NCBI GenBank assembly: GCA_022616535.1
Contig: JAKEEM010000007.1
Span: 1-64,000, forward strand
DNA from: Chlorobiota bacterium
GTDB taxonomy: Bacteria > Bacteroidota > Ignavibacteria > Tepidaquicellales > OLB5
Reading direction: 5' to 3'
Length of the DNA stretch: 64,000 nucleotides
The position numbers were made by a program, and so were the translations under genes. Each line of letters starts with the position of its first letter. Position 1 is the stretch's first letter. Of this stretch, positions 6,680 through 36,561 are shown piece after piece. The notes beneath the pieces are model-generated. The model did no database searches and was not told the origin of the DNA. It saw only the letters and a program-made list of their open reading frames with translations.

Positions 6680-8017
6680 TTATCCTCTTCTGCCTTTTAT
6701 CCTTCCGCTTTTCATAAAGCCGTCGTAATGCCTCATAACCAGGTGTGATTCTATTTGCTGCAGTGTATCAAGCGCAACACCAACCACGATCAATAGGCTC
6801 GTTCCCCCGAAAAACTGAGCCATTCCTTGAGTAACTCCTGCTTGTGCAATAAAAGCTGGCAATATTGCAATAAATGCCAGAAATATTGAACCTGGCAGCG
6901 TAATCTTTGTTAATATGTTATCAATAAAGTCCGATGTGGCTTTGCCGGGTCTGACTCCCGGGATAAATCCGCCCTGGCGTTTCATATTATCTGAAACGTC
7001 TTTAGGATTAAAAGCAATCGCAGTATAAAAATACGTAAAAAACACAATCAATGTTCCGTAAAATAACGCATAAACTAAACTCGTTTGATCAAAATATTTA
7101 GAAAGTCCCTGCATGAACTCACTATCTGGAAAGAAAGTCAATATAGTATTCGGCACAAACATAATAGACTGCGCAAAAATTATAGGCATTACACCTGCCT
7201 GGTTAACTCTTAGCGGAATATACTGCGTAACACCGCCGTATATTTTTCTTCCCACAACCCTTTTTGCATACTGAACGGGAATTCTTCTCATTGCCTGAGT
7301 AACCAAAACTACTCCCGAAACTATTAAAACTAAGCCTGCAATTATAATCAGTTCGATAATTATGCTTCTAGCACCTGAGGCAACAACCTGGTACTCATCC
7401 AAGAATGCATACGGCAGTCTGTCAATAATCCCCACAAAAATAATCAGCGAAATTCCGTTTCCAATTCCCCGCTCGGTAATCTGCTCGCCCAGCCACATCA
7501 TAAATATCGTTCCGGCAGTCATCAGAATAATGCAGGATATAGTAAAAATTACAGGTGAAACATCGGGTGACAAAATGCTGACGCCTGCTACGTTTCTGCT
7601 TTTAAGCTGGACGCTTACTCCCCAGGCCTGCATTAAGGCAACAGGAACGGTTCCGTACCTTGTAAGCTGGTTGATTTTTTTTCTGCCAGCCTCGCCTTCT
7701 TTCTGCAGCTTTTGAAAATACGGCACAACTGCACCTAATAGCTGGATAATAATTGATGAGCTGATGTAGGGCATTATTCCAAGTGCAAAAATAGCAGCAT
7801 TGGAAAAAGCACCGCCGACAAACAAATCGTAAAGACCGAATAAAGTGTTGCTCGCCTGGTTTTTCGAAGCTTCGGCGAGTAACCCTGTGTCAATCCCTGG
7901 TAGAGTTATATGAGCACCGATTCTTACAACAATAAGGAGTAATACGGTAAATATTATCCTTTGGCGTAACTCCTGGATTTTGAAAATATTTCTGAAACTT
8001 TCAACAAAACCGCTCAT
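6680..8017 (-). CDS. secY: Protein translocase subunit SecY
   Basis: Channel-forming subunit of the Sec translocon in the inner membrane. The 445 residues contain about ten hydrophobic segments. The first conserved block is GAHITLPGIDT (plug/TM1 region), followed by GIMPYISSSIIIQLL in TM2, GIGNGISLIIFVGI, and QGGFIPGVRPGKATSDFI in the cytosolic loop before the last helices. It overlaps rplO by 4 bp (ATGA), implying translational coupling. Confidence 0.98.
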   Translation of the reverse strand: MSGFVESFRNIFKIQELRQRIIFTVLLLIVVRIGAHITLPGIDTGLLAEASKNQASNTLFGLYDLFVGGAFSNAAIFALGIMPYISSSIIIQLLGAVVPYFQKLQKEGEAGRKKINQLTRYGTVPVALMQAWGVSVQLKSRNVAGVSILSPDVSPVIFTISCIILMTAGTIFMMWLGEQITERGIGNGISLIIFVGIIDRLPYAFLDEYQVVASGARSIIIELIIIAGLVLIVSGVVLVTQAMRRIPVQYAKRVVGRKIYGGVTQYIPLRVNQAGVMPIIFAQSIMFVPNTILTFFPDSEFMQGLSKYFDQTSLVYALFYGTLIVFFTYFYTAIAFNPKDVSDNMKRQGGFIPGVRPGKATSDFIDNILTKITLPGSIFLAFIAILPAFIAQAGVTQGMAQFFGGTSLLIVVGVALDTLQQIESHLVMRHYDGFMKSGRIKGRRG

Positions 8018-8472
8018 AAAACGATAGTCTTACCTCCGGTTTTTTCGATTTTTTCGACTGCCGTTTTGCTGAATTTATGTGCGGTTATATCCAATTTTTG
8101 TTTCAAGTCGCCTTCTCCTAAAATCTTAAGGGGTGTATTATTTTTTGATAAAATACCCGCTTTATAGAGAATCTCAGGGTTTAGATTCTGGTCTTTCAGC
8201 TTGCCTTTTTCAATAAAATACTGAAGCTTACCAAGATTTAAAACCTGATATTCAATTTTGCTTGGATTTTTAAAACCAAATTTTGGCAGTCTTCTCTGTA
8301 ACGGCATCTGTCCGCCTTCGAACCATGCACGCCACTTGTTTCCTGCACGCGAACCTGCACCGTTCATACCCCTTGTTGAGGTTTTGCCGTGCCCCGAACC
8401 GGGACCTCTCCCGATTCTTTTTCTTTTCCTCTTCGAGCCTTCAGCGGATTTTAAATTGCTTAAAACGTTCAT
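8014..8472 (-). CDS. rplO: 50S ribosomal protein L15
   Basis: Late-assembly 50S protein. I place the start at ATG 8472 (MNVLSNLKSAEGSKRKRKR), giving 152 aa, because this matches the family N-terminus. An upstream in-frame ATG at 8511 would add 13 unrelated residues and overlaps the terminator hairpin of the preceding gene. RIGRGPGSGHGKTSTRGMNG, GFEGGQMPL-like WFEGGQMPLQRRLPK and the C-terminal GGKTIVL are conserved. A rpmD-rplO junction would be normal here, but an outer-membrane protein gene intervenes. Confidence 0.96.
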   Translation of the reverse strand: MNVLSNLKSAEGSKRKRKRIGRGPGSGHGKTSTRGMNGAGSRAGNKWRAWFEGGQMPLQRRLPKFGFKNPSKIEYQVLNLGKLQYFIEKGKLKDQNLNPEILYKAGILSKNNTPLKILGEGDLKQKLDITAHKFSKTAVEKIEKTGGKTIVL

Positions 8473-8501: not shown

Positions 8502-8523
8502 CCCCTCGCATTTCTGCGAGGGG
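8502..8523 (-). terminator. Rho-independent terminator after the outer-membrane protein gene
   Basis: A perfect 9-bp stem (CCCCTCGCA / TGCGAGGGG) with a 4-base loop is followed on the minus strand by TCTTTATTG. It lies 28 bp after the stop of the 8551-9768 gene and upstream of rplO, so it would end or reduce transcription before rplO. Confidence 0.7.
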
Positions 8524-8550
8524 ACTTTAAAGTTAGAACAAAATATTTAC

Positions 8551-9768
8551 TTACTTACTAAAGTTATACGATGCCGAAATAATTCCGAACAAGTCTTCCG
8601 AATTCTGATTGTTCGAACCTGAGATCCAATATGGTCCTTGTTTCAGCCATCTTTCACTTACAGTTGCGTCAATGCTGAATCTGCCGAAATGGAAGCCAGC
8701 ACCAAGGCTTATTGAAGAGCTGTTGAAAGCAGACAGATCGCTGTATTCCAAAGTTGTACTAGGAGCAGTGTATTCATCGGAACCCATATTAATTCCCTTT
8801 ACAAAACCAAGTCTGCCGGTAATCCAGTCTGCAATTCTGGTTTCAACTGCCATATTGAATACAGGAGCTATAAAGTCAGTAAATTTGCTTTCATAGGTAC
8901 CTGTCGTATCAGAGAAAGAGGCCTTGTATGTATTATAAAATGCCTGAACACCTCCGGCAATCTGTATATCATCAACTATAGGCCAGTTTAAACCAACACC
9001 GCCATTAATATTAAGCCAGTTGTTTTCGTTACCTTCAACTGTCGTCGAACCAACCGTTGTTTTAGGGGTATAGCTGTAAGTATAGAAACCTAAAAGAGGA
9101 ACTACAGCAACCTTGCTTCCCTTTGATGGATAAATCCATCCTCTTAATCCAACGCTTAATTCAATTCCGCCGTCATTTTCCTGTGTGGTTAATGTGCCTC
9201 CGACTGTTGTTTCATCTTTATACTTATTCATTCTGAACTTAACGTTACCTTCAATCCATCCTTTCTTAACCATGTAGATGATACCTAAGTTTGCACCAAG
9301 AGAACTTGAACTTCTGTCATATGTGTAGCTGGTGTCTCCTGTCCACTTGGCATTCCACATAGCAACATAAGGAGCCAAGCCAATTTGGAAATCTTTGCTT
9401 GCTGTATAACCAATTAAACCCATAAAAGGTACTATGGGGGCATTAACTGAATCGACAGAAAAGTTATTCCAGCCATCCTGTCTTCTGTTTACAACCATGC
9501 CAAGGTTCCATTTCTTTCCTAAAGCAAAAGTCACACCCGCATGTCCATCAAAATCGCTTGATTCACCGAATTGGTTAAGGTCTGAAAATGCATAATTCCT
9601 GTATTGAGTGTTCCAAGCCGGGTTATTCAACATATCAATGTGAGCATCCAAAATGAATGGTGAATTGCCCAAGGCTGAGTATCTACCAGTACCGCTTGGT
9701 ATTGACTGGGCGTAAACGCCGACAGCCATGACAAGCAAGAACATAACTGCTAGAAAACGTTTTAACAT
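8551..9768 (-). CDS. Predicted outer-membrane beta-barrel protein inserted in the spc operon
   Basis: I recognise a class but not a named family. The 405 residues begin with a Sec signal peptide (MLKRFLAVMFLLVMAVGVYA, cleavage probably before QSIPSG). The mature part is rich in alternating polar/aromatic strands, Gly, Asn and Tyr and ends in an aromatic-rich strand (FGIISASYNFSK), as expected of an outer-membrane barrel; the N-terminal TGRYSALGNSPFILDAHIDM resembles barrel proteins of the PorV/FadL kind seen in Bacteroidota. The gene has an unusually strong Shine-Dalgarno (AGGAGG at 9779-9784, 10 nt before ATG), a palindrome upstream and its own terminator. It separates rpmD from rplO, which are normally adjacent. 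Confidence 0.75.
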   Translation of the reverse strand: MLKRFLAVMFLLVMAVGVYAQSIPSGTGRYSALGNSPFILDAHIDMLNNPAWNTQYRNYAFSDLNQFGESSDFDGHAGVTFALGKKWNLGMVVNRRQDGWNNFSVDSVNAPIVPFMGLIGYTASKDFQIGLAPYVAMWNAKWTGDTSYTYDRSSSSLGANLGIIYMVKKGWIEGNVKFRMNKYKDETTVGGTLTTQENDGGIELSVGLRGWIYPSKGSKVAVVPLLGFYTYSYTPKTTVGSTTVEGNENNWLNINGGVGLNWPIVDDIQIAGGVQAFYNTYKASFSDTTGTYESKFTDFIAPVFNMAVETRIADWITGRLGFVKGINMGSDEYTAPSTTLEYSDLSAFNSSSISLGAGFHFGRFSIDATVSERWLKQGPYWISGSNNQNSEDLFGIISASYNFSK

Positions 9769-9833
9769 TACTTTTTTTCCTCCTATAATGTTATTAAATG
9801 TTATTTTAATTTATTCACTTAATTACTACTTTA

Positions 9834-9856
9834 ATCATGATGACGTCAGTCATGAT
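9834..9856. promoter_or_regulatory. Near-perfect palindrome upstream of the outer-membrane protein gene
   Basis: ATCATGA, then the self-complementary TGACGTCA, then G, then TCATGAT. The whole 23-bp block is an inverted repeat broken only by one extra G. It lies between the rpmD stop and the start of the outer-membrane gene. It could be an operator for a dimeric regulator or a hairpin in the transcript; no T-tract follows it, so a terminator is less likely. Confidence 0.45.
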
Positions 9857-9866
9857 ATTTCGCTTT

Positions 9867-10043
9867 TTAAGTAAAAACTTGTACTAAATGCTTTACTTTT
9901 TCAATCATACCCCTTATTTGAGGAGTATCATTGTGCTGTTTTATTTTGCCTATTCTTCCAAGTCCCAGAGCCTCTATAACAAGCTTCTGGTTTTGGGGAC
10001 GGTCAATTGTGCTTCTAATCTGCTTTACCTTAATTGTTGCCAT
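9867..10043 (-). CDS. rpmD: 50S ribosomal protein L30
   Basis: A 58-residue product read from the minus strand: it starts MATIKVKQIRSTIDRPQNQK and continues with EALGLGRIGKIKQHNDTPQI and RGMIEKVKHLVQV. The QxRSxI, LGLGRI and H/NDTPxIRGM elements identify L30. It starts 3 bp after rpsE. Unusually, the next gene on the strand is not rplO but an outer-membrane protein. Confidence 0.96.
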   Translation of the reverse strand: MATIKVKQIRSTIDRPQNQKLVIEALGLGRIGKIKQHNDTPQIRGMIEKVKHLVQVFT

Positions 10044-10553: not shown

Positions 10554-10642
10554 TAACCTTATTATTTCACAAAAAACTAATTACAAATATATATAAAAAA
10601 AAATTAAAAATCCAGAATTATTAATATTTTACAAATTTTCAG

Positions 10643-10713
10643 TTCTCAGGGGAGGATTCGAACCTCCACTAACGGCTCCAAAGGCCGCTGTCCTGCCATT
10701 AGACGACCCGAGA
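10643..10713 (-). tRNA. tRNA-Gln (anticodon TTG)
   Basis: A 71-nt cloverleaf on the minus strand. The acceptor stem is TCTCGGG / CCTGAGA with one G-T pair and discriminator A. The anticodon stem GCGGC / GCCGT closes the loop CTTTGGA, giving anticodon TTG (Gln). The T arm is GGAGG-TTCGAAT-CCTCC. CCA is not encoded. It lies between rplR and rpsE, inside the spc operon and in the same direction, so it probably has to be processed from the ribosomal protein mRNA or has its own promoter. Confidence 0.95.
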
Positions 10714-16388: not shown

Positions 16389-17213
16389 TTACTTTCTTCT
16401 TTTAACTATTAATTTATTAGATAGATTCTTTTTCTTTCTTGTCTTGTATCCTTTGGTAGGCAAGCCCCAGGGACTGACAGGATGACCGCCGCCGGAGGTT
16501 TTTCCTTCGCCGCCGCCCATCGGGTGGTCAACGGGGTTCATTGCAACTCCCCTGACTTTAGGCCTTCTTCCGAGCCATCTTGAGCGTCCCGCCTTACCAA
16601 GACTCAGGTTCTCATGCTCAAGATTGCTTACAACTCCGATAGTTGCTCTGCAGGAATTTAAAACCATCCGCACTTCGCCTGAGGGAAGTTTAATCTGAGT
16701 ATACTTTTCATCTTTTGCCACTATTATACATGAGCTCCCTGCGCTTCGAGCAAGCTGTCCTCCCTTGCCTGGTTTCAATTCAACATTGTGAACAAATGTG
16801 CCGAGCGGAATATTTGCAAGCGGCAGTGTATTTCCAACCTGAATATCAGCGACTTCGCCTGAGGTAATAGAGCTTCCGACTTTTAAATTGTCTGGTGCAA
16901 TAATATAGGTTAATTCTCCGTCAGGGTACTTAATCAGCGCGATTCTTGCCGAACGGTTTGGGTCATACTCAATTGCTTCAACTTTGCCTTCAACGCCGGA
17001 TTTCTGTCTTTTAAAATCGATGATTCTGTACATCCGTTTATGCCCGCCGCCCCTGCGTCTGGAAGTAATTCTTCCTAAATTATTTCTGCCGCCTGATTTC
17101 TTTAACGGCTTTAATAATGACTTTTCGGGCGTAGTTTTAGTAATATCCTCGAATGAAGAAATTGTATAAAATCTCGTTCCCGGTGTTACTGGCTTTAACT
17201 TTTTTATGGGCAT
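16389..17213 (-). CDS. rplB: 50S ribosomal protein L2
   Basis: Peptidyl-transferase-centre protein, 274 aa. Typical blocks are [40 protein letters not shown], the central [15 protein letters not shown]-like region and the C-terminal [20 protein letters not shown] with [19 protein letters not shown]; the catalytic-centre-proximal His lies in [10 protein letters not shown]. It has its own near-consensus promoter because its normal upstream partner rplW lies 17.7 kb away. Confidence 0.98.
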
Positions 17214-17451: not shown

Positions 17452-19596
17452 TTATTTCACAAGAACCATTTTTTTAGTATCTATTTTATCATTATTAACA
17501 AACAGCGAGTAGAAATAAACACCAGAGGCAAACTCCGAGCCGTCGAAATCATAGCTAATGGTTCCGGGGTTAAACTCTACATTATTTATAAGCAGCTTAA
17601 CCTCCCTTCCTAAAATATCGTAGACTTTTAATGTTACCATTCCTGTCTTAGGCAGTCCGAATTTAATAGTAGTGCTTGGGTTAAAGGGGTTTGGATAGTT
17701 CTGCGACAATGTGTAGCGAACGGGAACCTCGCCATTCCATGTTATACCGCCTACAAAAGCGTCATATAATTTAAAAACATAACCGCTTGAGCCGCAAACA
17801 AATGCTGAATCATAACCTTTAGCAAAAATTCCATACATAGTTGAACCGCTTGTATTGAGCACCTGCCAAGTCGAACCGCCATTTGATGTTCTTATAGTAT
17901 ACCCGGTTGTCCCGCCGATAAAGCCTGTGTTCATATTAATAAATGATAATCCGTATTGGGTTTGTGTAAACGGTGTGGCAACGGTATCCCAATTTGTTCC
18001 GCCGTTTGTTGTTCTTCTGAGAGTTCCGCTAAATCCGATTAGATATCCGGAGGTTGCATTAAACATTTTTATATTATATAATGTCGAAGTGTAACCCGGA
18101 GTTTGAGCTGTCCAATTCGAACCTCCGTCTGTAGTTTTCCTAACAGCACCGCTTGAGCCGACAAACCAGCCGGTATTAGCATCTACCATATCTATTTTAT
18201 AAAGTGATGATGTGGTCCCTGTCGTCTGTAAAGCCCAGCTTGAACCGCCGTCAGTAGTTTTAAACACCCTGCCGCTTGAGCCGGATATCCACCCTGTATT
18301 AGCATTTACGAAATCAGCAGAATACAGCGTGGTCGAAGTGGCGTATACTGTCGATGTGTCCCAGTTGGCGCCGCCGTTTGTGGTTTTAAATAATTTGCTG
18401 GATGTTGCAGTCGCATAACCCGTATTGGAATTAAGCATAAATAAGCCATACAAAGTATATGTTCCAAGGTTAGCAGCCACACCATACTGCCATGTGGCGC
18501 CGCCATTGGTTGACATTATCACCTGGTCAGGCGATGCCGAACCAACGGCAATTACCCTTCCATTCATATTATCGCACCATATATCATTCAATGTACCCAA
18601 ATTTCCCAGATAATTATGAGCCACCCAGTTTGAGCCTGTATTAGTAGAAGTATTGAGTAATCCATAAGCTCCTCCGGTTACCATCGCAGTTCCGTTTCTA
18701 TCGAGAGTGTAATATGTCGATGTATAATACTGGTTTCCGGTAAATGATACCGAATCCCACGTCTGTCCGTCATTTGTGCTTCTGAATATGTAGAAAGTAT
18801 GTCCGCCGGCATACAAAGTGTTATTGTTGTAAGCCAGTCCGTAAAGAGTGCTCGTTGGAAGTCCCGTGCTCGTTTGAGTCCAGTTAGCCCCGCCATTGGT
18901 TGTAACCCTGATAGAACCTGATGAGCCGCATACCCAGCCGGTATTTGCGTCCTTAAAATACACATCATATTGGGTGACTGACGTTCCAGTCGACACTATT
19001 GTCCAGTTTGCTCCGCCGTTGGTTGTATATCTTAGATTAGCAGAAGATGAAGAACAGTAAATACGGTTTACGTCTACAGCATAAATATTGTATAATGCCG
19101 CAGAAGTTCCGGTAGAAATAGCTGTCCAGTTTAATCCGCCGTTTGTGGTTTTTAGAATATTTCCTCCGGATGATGTTGAAATAAATCCTGTTGTGGAATT
19201 TATAAAATGCATTCCATAAAGCGTTGCCGTTTCTCCTGAAGGAATTGTATCCCACGAGACGCCTGCATTTGTAGTTCTTGCAATTTTACCGCTGCTTCCG
19301 CATGCAAGTCCGGTGTTCATATCAAAAAACCAGCCGTTGTAAATTGCAATCTGGCTGGTTAGCGCTTCACCCATCACTTCATGATTGATAAACCAATTGG
19401 CTCCGCCGTTAGTAGTTTTAATGAACGTGCCGGCATAACCCAAGGCATAAAAAGTTGTTGTATTAAATGCTTTTACATGCCTCAGGTAATTTCCCTGCGG
19501 TTTAGGATGCGACCACTTCCACGGAGAATTTACCTGGGAAAGCAATGAATTGGTAAAAAGTAAAGTAATTATAGAAAAGAAAATCAATCTTTTCAT
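17452..19596 (-). CDS. Secreted YCF48/BNR-repeat beta-propeller protein with T9SS sorting domain
   Basis: 714-residue surface or extracellular protein. It has a Sec signal peptide (MKRLIFFSIITLLFTNSLLS), about twelve repeats of roughly 45 residues each marked by TTNGGANW-like words preceded by GWxxGSSG-like words, and a C-terminal T9SS type A sorting domain over the last 75 residues (NYPNPFNPSTTIKFGLP ... LKVYDILGREV ... SGVYFYSLFV ... KKMVLVK). The repeats resemble the photosystem II assembly factor Ycf48 and sortilin-type propeller blades, here surely unrelated to photosynthesis. The start is supported by AAGGGG 6 nt before ATG. Ligand and function are unknown. It lies between clpB-C and rplB. 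Confidence 0.85.
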   Translation of the reverse strand: MKRLIFFSIITLLFTNSLLSQVNSPWKWSHPKPQGNYLRHVKAFNTTTFYALGYAGTFIKTTNGGANWFINHEVMGEALTSQIAIYNGWFFDMNTGLACGSSGKIARTTNAGVSWDTIPSGETATLYGMHFINSTTGFISTSSGGNILKTTNGGLNWTAISTGTSAALYNIYAVDVNRIYCSSSSANLRYTTNGGANWTIVSTGTSVTQYDVYFKDANTGWVCGSSGSIRVTTNGGANWTQTSTGLPTSTLYGLAYNNNTLYAGGHTFYIFRSTNDGQTWDSVSFTGNQYYTSTYYTLDRNGTAMVTGGAYGLLNTSTNTGSNWVAHNYLGNLGTLNDIWCDNMNGRVIAVGSASPDQVIMSTNGGATWQYGVAANLGTYTLYGLFMLNSNTGYATATSSKLFKTTNGGANWDTSTVYATSTTLYSADFVNANTGWISGSSGRVFKTTDGGSSWALQTTGTTSSLYKIDMVDANTGWFVGSSGAVRKTTDGGSNWTAQTPGYTSTLYNIKMFNATSGYLIGFSGTLRRTTNGGTNWDTVATPFTQTQYGLSFINMNTGFIGGTTGYTIRTSNGGSTWQVLNTSGSTMYGIFAKGYDSAFVCGSSGYVFKLYDAFVGGITWNGEVPVRYTLSQNYPNPFNPSTTIKFGLPKTGMVTLKVYDILGREVKLLINNVEFNPGTISYDFDGSEFASGVYFYSLFVNNDKIDTKKMVLVK

Positions 19597-35935: not shown

Positions 35936-36561
35936 TATTTTAGCTTATAAATTTCAACAATTCCGGAATTTGCGCCTGGCACTGCTCCTTTTACCAGCAT
36001 TAAATTCGAATCCGGAATAACTTTTATTACCTTGAGATTGCGGACTGATTTTTTTTTCCCTCCGGTTCTTCCAGCCATCCTCTGTCCTTTAAACACCCTG
36101 GATGGGTATGAGCTCGCGCCGATTGAACCCGGTGCCCTTAACCTGTCGCTCTGCCCGTGGGTAACGGAACCGCCGCCGAATCCGTGTCTTTTTACGACAC
36201 CCTGAAACCCTTTTCCTTTGCTTATCCCCGTAACCTTAACACTATCACCCTCATTAAACAAATCTACTTTCAGTACATCGCCTAATTTTAACTGGTCTGA
36301 GTCTTCAAAATCCCTTATCTCTTTCAGAAATCTTAACAGAGGTAATTTTTTCTTTTTAAAGTTTTTTACCTGAGCTTCTGCCAATCTTTTTTCGCTTCTT
36401 TCAGCAAAACCAAGCTGAACGGAGGCGTATCCGTCATTATCCTTGGTTTTAAGAGCAGTAACGTAACAGGGTCCCGCCTCGATAAGAGTGCAGGGCACGC
36501 TGGAACCATCATCGGTAAATACCGAAGTCATTCCAATTTTTCTTCCGATTAATCCCTTCAT
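35935..36561 (-). CDS. rplC: 50S ribosomal protein L3
   Basis: Early 50S assembly protein, 208 aa. MKGLIGRKIGMTSVFTDDGS, the tip loop KRHGFGGGSVTHGQSDRLRA with GSIGASSYPSRVFKGQRMAG and the end GIVEIYKLK are conserved. The loop Gln targeted by PrmB methylation in other bacteria lies in THGQSD. It lies between rpsJ and rplD. Confidence 0.98.
   Translation of the reverse strand: MKGLIGRKIGMTSVFTDDGSSVPCTLIEAGPCYVTALKTKDNDGYASVQLGFAERSEKRLAEAQVKNFKKKKLPLLRFLKEIRDFEDSDQLKLGDVLKVDLFNEGDSVKVTGISKGKGFQGVVKRHGFGGGSVTHGQSDRLRAPGSIGASSYPSRVFKGQRMAGRTGGKKKSVRNLKVIKVIPDSNLMLVKGAVPGANSGIVEIYKLK

Follow-up and report, generated by a model that had tools for sequence, protein, structure and literature searches.

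An outer-membrane barrel gene, probably of the PopA superfamily, in an old and exchangeable slot of the spc ribosomal operon in one order of Ignavibacteria

According to the available text of its description, PopA (Bd0427), a lipid-trapping pentamer, is Bdellovibrio's major outer-membrane protein; it shows no porin behaviour in that account, and its fold is made up of a 16-stranded barrel, a short inner edge and a helical plug (PMC12228718). The same text describes a PopA superfamily whose members assemble radially around loop 8 into tetramers, pentamers or hexamers that have a lipid-filled chamber, counts a protein of Ignavibacter (IPM56_03505) among them, and sets alongside this superfamily a second, unrelated radial superfamily of 8-stranded barrels (BT1926-like) (PMC12228718). 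For another outer-membrane protein, OmpA of Escherichia coli, the accessible part of the source reports that the 5' UTR stabilises the mRNA when cells grow fast (PMC2777011). It is an open question how cells scale their surface proteins as they grow, and in the locus described here a surface gene is seemingly placed inside a ribosomal operon.

Here we show that the position between rpmD and rplO in the spc operon of one little-studied order of Ignavibacteria is an old slot, exchangeable between unrelated families of outer-membrane barrels or empty. The window, that is, the whole analysed stretch of 64,000 nucleotides, comes from a genome that was placed by similarity in a group whose representative is Candidatus Tepidiaquacellales bacterium OLB5 (Ignavibacteriota, class Ignavibacteria). 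A literature search that covered few subscription papers found no prior report of such an arrangement in the spc slot.

On the minus strand of the window the spc genes run rplR, tRNA-Gln, rpsE, rpmD, a 405-aa gene, a terminator, rplO, secY, map, infA and rpsM (Table 1). A preliminary description of this DNA had placed a gene for a 405-aa barrel-like protein with a signal peptide between rpmD and rplO, and both the place and the product were borne out: the open reading frame lies there, encodes 405 aa and starts with a signal-like stretch. It is present as one copy in the window's genome. For rplO, alignment to relatives gives the internal ATG at 8472 as the likely start, versus 8511 in the mechanical call.

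Table 1. Features of the rpmD-rplO slot and its surroundings in the window
Feature	Position	Strand	Basis
secY, 4-base overlap with rplO, 3' of the terminator	6680..8017	-	
rplO (L15), downstream neighbour	8014..8472	-	TIGR01071 match
Intrinsic-terminator-like hairpin between barrel gene and rplO	8502..8523	-	scan, conservation, folding
405-aa barrel gene, PopA-superfamily-like, signal-like N-terminus	8551..9768	-	ORF, NCBIfam PopA match, fold matches
AGGAGG ribosome-binding signal (CCTCCT on the plus strand), 10 nt 5' of the ATG	9779..9784	-	sequence
Upstream RNA hairpin, 7-bp arms, 9-nt loop ending in GACGTCA	9834..9856	-	covariation, uniqueness
rpmD (L30), upstream neighbour	9867..10043	-	PF00327 match
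tRNA-Gln (TTG) between rplR and rpsE	10642-10713		ARAGORN

The window protein was found in 26 of the 59 genomes searched, which comprised the window's own and its relatives. The slot could be read in 42 of the 44 genomes analysed from the order, two being left out (G006, where the contig ends inside rplO, and G013, with no rplO match). The PopA-like gene (state A) occupies it in 24 genomes, an unrelated small barrel of about 229-240 aa (state B) in 7, and in 11 it is empty; no genome among the 42 carries both types in one slot. State A comprises all 13 informative genomes of the window's family and 11 of the 29 members of the order's other family. Since the gene sits in the same place in every informative family member, its absence from close relatives, which the preliminary description had named as grounds for dropping the idea, is not what is found. 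The placement is real and old. With 11 of 42 informative genomes living with an empty slot, the arrangement is not essential. A contig break interrupts the barrel gene in three of the 15 family assemblies (G002, G004 and G014; loci L012, L027, L129 and L146), possibly a sign of strain-level variation.

No gene was seen in the slot outside the order. That rpmD and rplO normally form a tight pair, as had been claimed, agrees with rpsE-rplO distances of 209-362 bases in all of the 60 class genomes listed out of 347 outside the order, and the regions fetched from other class members are likewise closed. Among 70 further loci with both rpsE and rplO, three of which belong to the order (L042, L043 and L044), the distance exceeds 400 in one, L043, a slot-B member of the order. 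The slot-A profile does match in 65 of the 347 class genomes outside the order; among the 39 of these for which a rplO or rpsE position was listed as well, none has such a gene near rplO or rpsE, the matches lying on different contigs or more than 200 kb apart. As far as read, the insertion between rpmD and rplO is thus specific to one order.

The window protein has no credible match in Pfam or PHROGs and none, by sequence, among solved structures. It does match the NCBIfam PopA model (NF053618) over residues 12-403 with 30.6 bits (E 2e-7), against a cut-off of 150 that is reached in none of the 15 window-family genomes; each of the 21 slot-A proteins aligned is hit by the same model (best E 3e-15). 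A profile of the slot-A proteins retrieved from the solved structures weak OmpA matches (best E 0.007) and did not find the PopA structures, so the link to PopA rests on the NCBIfam model together with a fold search. The latter used a model built from nine sequences with a mean pLDDT of 53, in which the strand count is unreliable. With this low-confidence model, the top four Foldseek matches were chains of the PopA structures 9gf0/9ga1 (E 1e-6 to 1e-5), the only matches in the PDB with E below 0.001, the next standing at 1e-3. VIA-align, applied to the same pLDDT-53 model, gave Z scores of 19.8 and 19.7 for PopA, the best match having an rmsd of 4.5 over 298 aligned positions, followed by FhuA at 17.0. 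The slot-A protein is probably a distant member of the PopA superfamily and an outer-membrane β-barrel.

The small proteins of state B match Pfam OMP_b-brl, five of the seven above its cut-off, and a tblastn search with the slot-A protein left their genes unmatched. A single-sequence fold model of a slot-B protein was unusable (pLDDT 39.5). Genes like those of slot B also lie off-slot in G023, G041 and G027, with two extra copies in G028, and a longer paralogue of the slot-A gene lies off-slot in G029 and G040. In G023, where the slot holds the A gene, a slot-B-like gene broken by one TAG (L225 579-1259) is located on the slot's own contig, about 9 kb upstream, and the genome has an intact copy at another site. 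The leaders of three slot-B genes (L166, L157 and L167) contain a small hairpin, a AAGAAAGGA signal and an open frame of two or three codons before the barrel gene (ATG GTA TAA, ATG AAG TAA and ATG GTA TCA TAA).

The start signal of the window's gene had been described as far stronger than those of its neighbours, and this stands: AGGAGG occurs within 20 nt upstream of three of 253 background genes of the window's genome and before none of its 22 listed ribosomal, secY and rpmD starts. It is found in 11 of the 11 window-family upstream regions listed, and is limited to that family. The element reported as a 23-bp palindrome upstream is present but is no perfect palindrome of that length; it consists of two perfect 7-bp arms around 9 nt, and is therefore better described as an RNA hairpin. 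The window leader of 102 nt folds with a z of -2.0. Across 11 sequences, 97.4% of the hairpin's cells are paired and three of its seven pairs have changed on both sides, which exceeds every slid control. The pattern matches just once in each of 11 family genomes out of 15, always some 80 bases ahead of the barrel gene, which favours a local RNA element over a regulator site (a reversed pattern gave two matches in all across the 15). An operator of a regulon was rejected as an interpretation, a second copy being present in none of the 15. In G026 and G015 strong leader hairpins of different sequence occupy the same position (z -6.9 and -2.1, respectively). The upstream hairpin is not universal: the leader of G025, one representative of genus g10, folds no better than shuffled sequences; the same holds for the whole leader of G001, whose hairpin is based on the covariation count alone. 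An Rfam scan of seven loci returned tRNAs only.

Downstream of the barrel gene, the claimed terminator was confirmed as a stem of nine pairs, seven of them G-C, with a U-rich tail (TCTTTATTGT) and a folding z of -6.5. All seven counted stem positions are paired in 18 of 18 aligned relatives, one pair showing changes on both sides. Terminator-like sites across 16 kb number 15 against 14.9 expected, no excess over chance, and the case for this site therefore rests on its strength and conservation. Its G+C-rich stem, its U-rich tail and its retention in relatives fit a candidate intrinsic terminator. Of the 21 complete slot-A loci, 20 have a terminator 3' of the slot gene (G037 has the gene without it), as do all seven slot-B loci. 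The terminator's sequence type tracks that of the occupant: the arms read CCCCT(C/T)G in 19 of the 20 slot-A cases, G038 being the exception, and are of TCCT type in slot B. Because it follows the barrel type, the terminator points first to the 3' end of the barrel gene.

A species tree was built by a quick method from up to ten ribosomal and SecY proteins in 41 genomes of the order, with many rows partly filled; it left out G014 (state A) and the unread G006 and G013. On this tree the states A, B and empty require at least nine changes. Sister pairs join G040 (A) with G029 (B) and G037 (A) with G030 (empty), and G036 (B) is sister to five A genomes. The tree of the A gene broadly matches the species tree, G038 and G037 being unsure, and therefore suggests mostly vertical inheritance of the PopA-like gene; recent horizontal exchange as the cause of the alternation is unsupported for the same reason. 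Little can be drawn from the weak slot-B tree beyond the grouping of G036 with off-slot copies from two genomes of g10. We favour the reading that the alternation arose through differential loss and replacement of ancestral genes.

The ribosomal cluster holds other insertions. The tRNA-Gln (TTG) was detected by ARAGORN at the same spot in 15 of 15 relatives' loci scanned, and is thus, besides the barrel gene, another conserved addition to the spc operon. The window's S10 operon is split, in that a gene for a 714-aa secreted repeat protein (17452-19596), whose C-terminus resembles a type IX sorting domain, comes before rplB (16389-17213), and a match to rplC (L3) lies at 36019-36273, about 19 kb beyond. 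Between rplV and rpsC, G001 carries a gene for a 131-aa protein that starts with a signal-like stretch (L226 5820-6215), another predicted envelope-type insertion, which the window does not have.

Codon usage is uninformative as a sign of expression in the window's genome. The barrel gene has a CAI of 0.739, above 75% of the background, and the ribosomal genes themselves are not separated from it (mean 0.726 versus 0.721).

On balance we consider it probable that the PopA-superfamily-like barrel gene is an insulated cistron in an ancient, exchangeable spc slot, its product being made in step with ribosomes. The gene would be read as part of the ribosomal operon or driven by an unrecognised internal promoter; at the two ends of its mRNA the upstream hairpin and the terminator would serve as marks or as protection, and high translation would come from the strong AGGAGG. 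The outcome would be a surface protein, probably abundant, produced in step with ribosomes, while rplO-secY would be supplied by partial read-through or a separate start. The alternation of occupants would follow from differential loss and replacement of ancestral genes at a site suiting such proteins. Judged from sequence, coupling of an abundant envelope protein to ribosome production, as raised in the preliminary description, is plausible. More speculatively, and with doubts of our own, the order may keep a swappable spc position for its main surface protein, the occupant being made in fixed proportion to ribosomes and SecY and exchanged between two unrelated barrel families, perhaps under phage or predator pressure.

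Alternatively, the barrel gene might be a unit with its own promoter, independent of ribosome synthesis, and its terminator might serve to stop over-expression of rplO-secY, which we find possible but doubtful: a terminator follows the gene directly in nearly all complete loci of both types, about 100 nt between rpmD and the barrel gene leave room for a promoter, and strong hairpins stand 3' of rpmD in some relatives; however, these hairpins have no U runs behind them, and the leader shows no convincing sigma-70-type promoter on the same strand, as judged by a consensus that may not be the host's. Attenuation of rplO-secY, the other suggestion of the preliminary description, is possible, but we think it unlikely that the main role of the hairpin ahead of rplO is to attenuate rplO-secY and the genes downstream, with the barrel gene secondary to it. 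Four empty slots do retain a TCCTTTG/CAAAGGA hairpin, with arms as in the small-barrel terminators; yet seven empty slots are without it, and the four fold with z values of only -1.2 to -2.1. Because hairpin sequence tracks the type of barrel gene, we read these four as what is left of a B gene that has been lost.

A neutral origin, in which the gene was inserted once, long ago and by chance, and has since been passed on with no advantage from its location, seems to us quite improbable. The 11 empty slots agree with it, and one insertion followed by losses would explain much of an A gene tree that broadly tracks the species tree. Chance does not, however, sit well with a spot taken by an unrelated barrel family in seven genomes, with B genes off-slot in two g10 genomes that hold A in the slot, or with the conservation of hairpin and terminator and the rarity of the start signal. 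Our preferred reading remains the insulated cistron made in step with ribosomes.

With its PopA-like, small-barrel, empty and empty-with-hairpin slots, the order amounts to a natural experiment, in which one may ask whether ribosomal operons act as growth-coupled expression sites for envelope proteins; the same genomes bear on the effect of a mid-operon terminator on rplO and secY. If true, the swappable position would be a built-in growth law joining envelope and ribosome production.

Set against PopA, the slot-A protein has a barrel of similar length behind a signal-like stretch, PopA structures are its best matches in the PDB, and its model places two short N-terminal helices where PopA has the plug; on the other hand, identity is about 15%, the NCBIfam score falls far under the cut-off, and the available text on PopA mentions no ribosomal-operon location (PMC12228718). 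Insertions into the conserved ribosomal cluster have been published, and resemble the present case in that genes were inserted into an otherwise kept cluster; in the accessible parts of those accounts, however, they lie mostly between operons, apart from a recombined rpsN within spc, and no single slot alternating between unrelated envelope proteins is described. To our knowledge, ompA of E. coli lies outside any ribosomal operon. Its likeness to the locus lies in a hairpin upstream of a strong ribosome-binding signal on the mRNA of an outer-membrane protein, as described in the accessible part of the source (PMC2777011). With the spc operon as usually found (rplN ... rpmD-rplO-secY), the order's loci examined share an otherwise ordinary gene order, and differ from it in two additions, an outer-membrane gene in the rpmD-rplO interval and a tRNA-Gln in that of rplR and rpsE.
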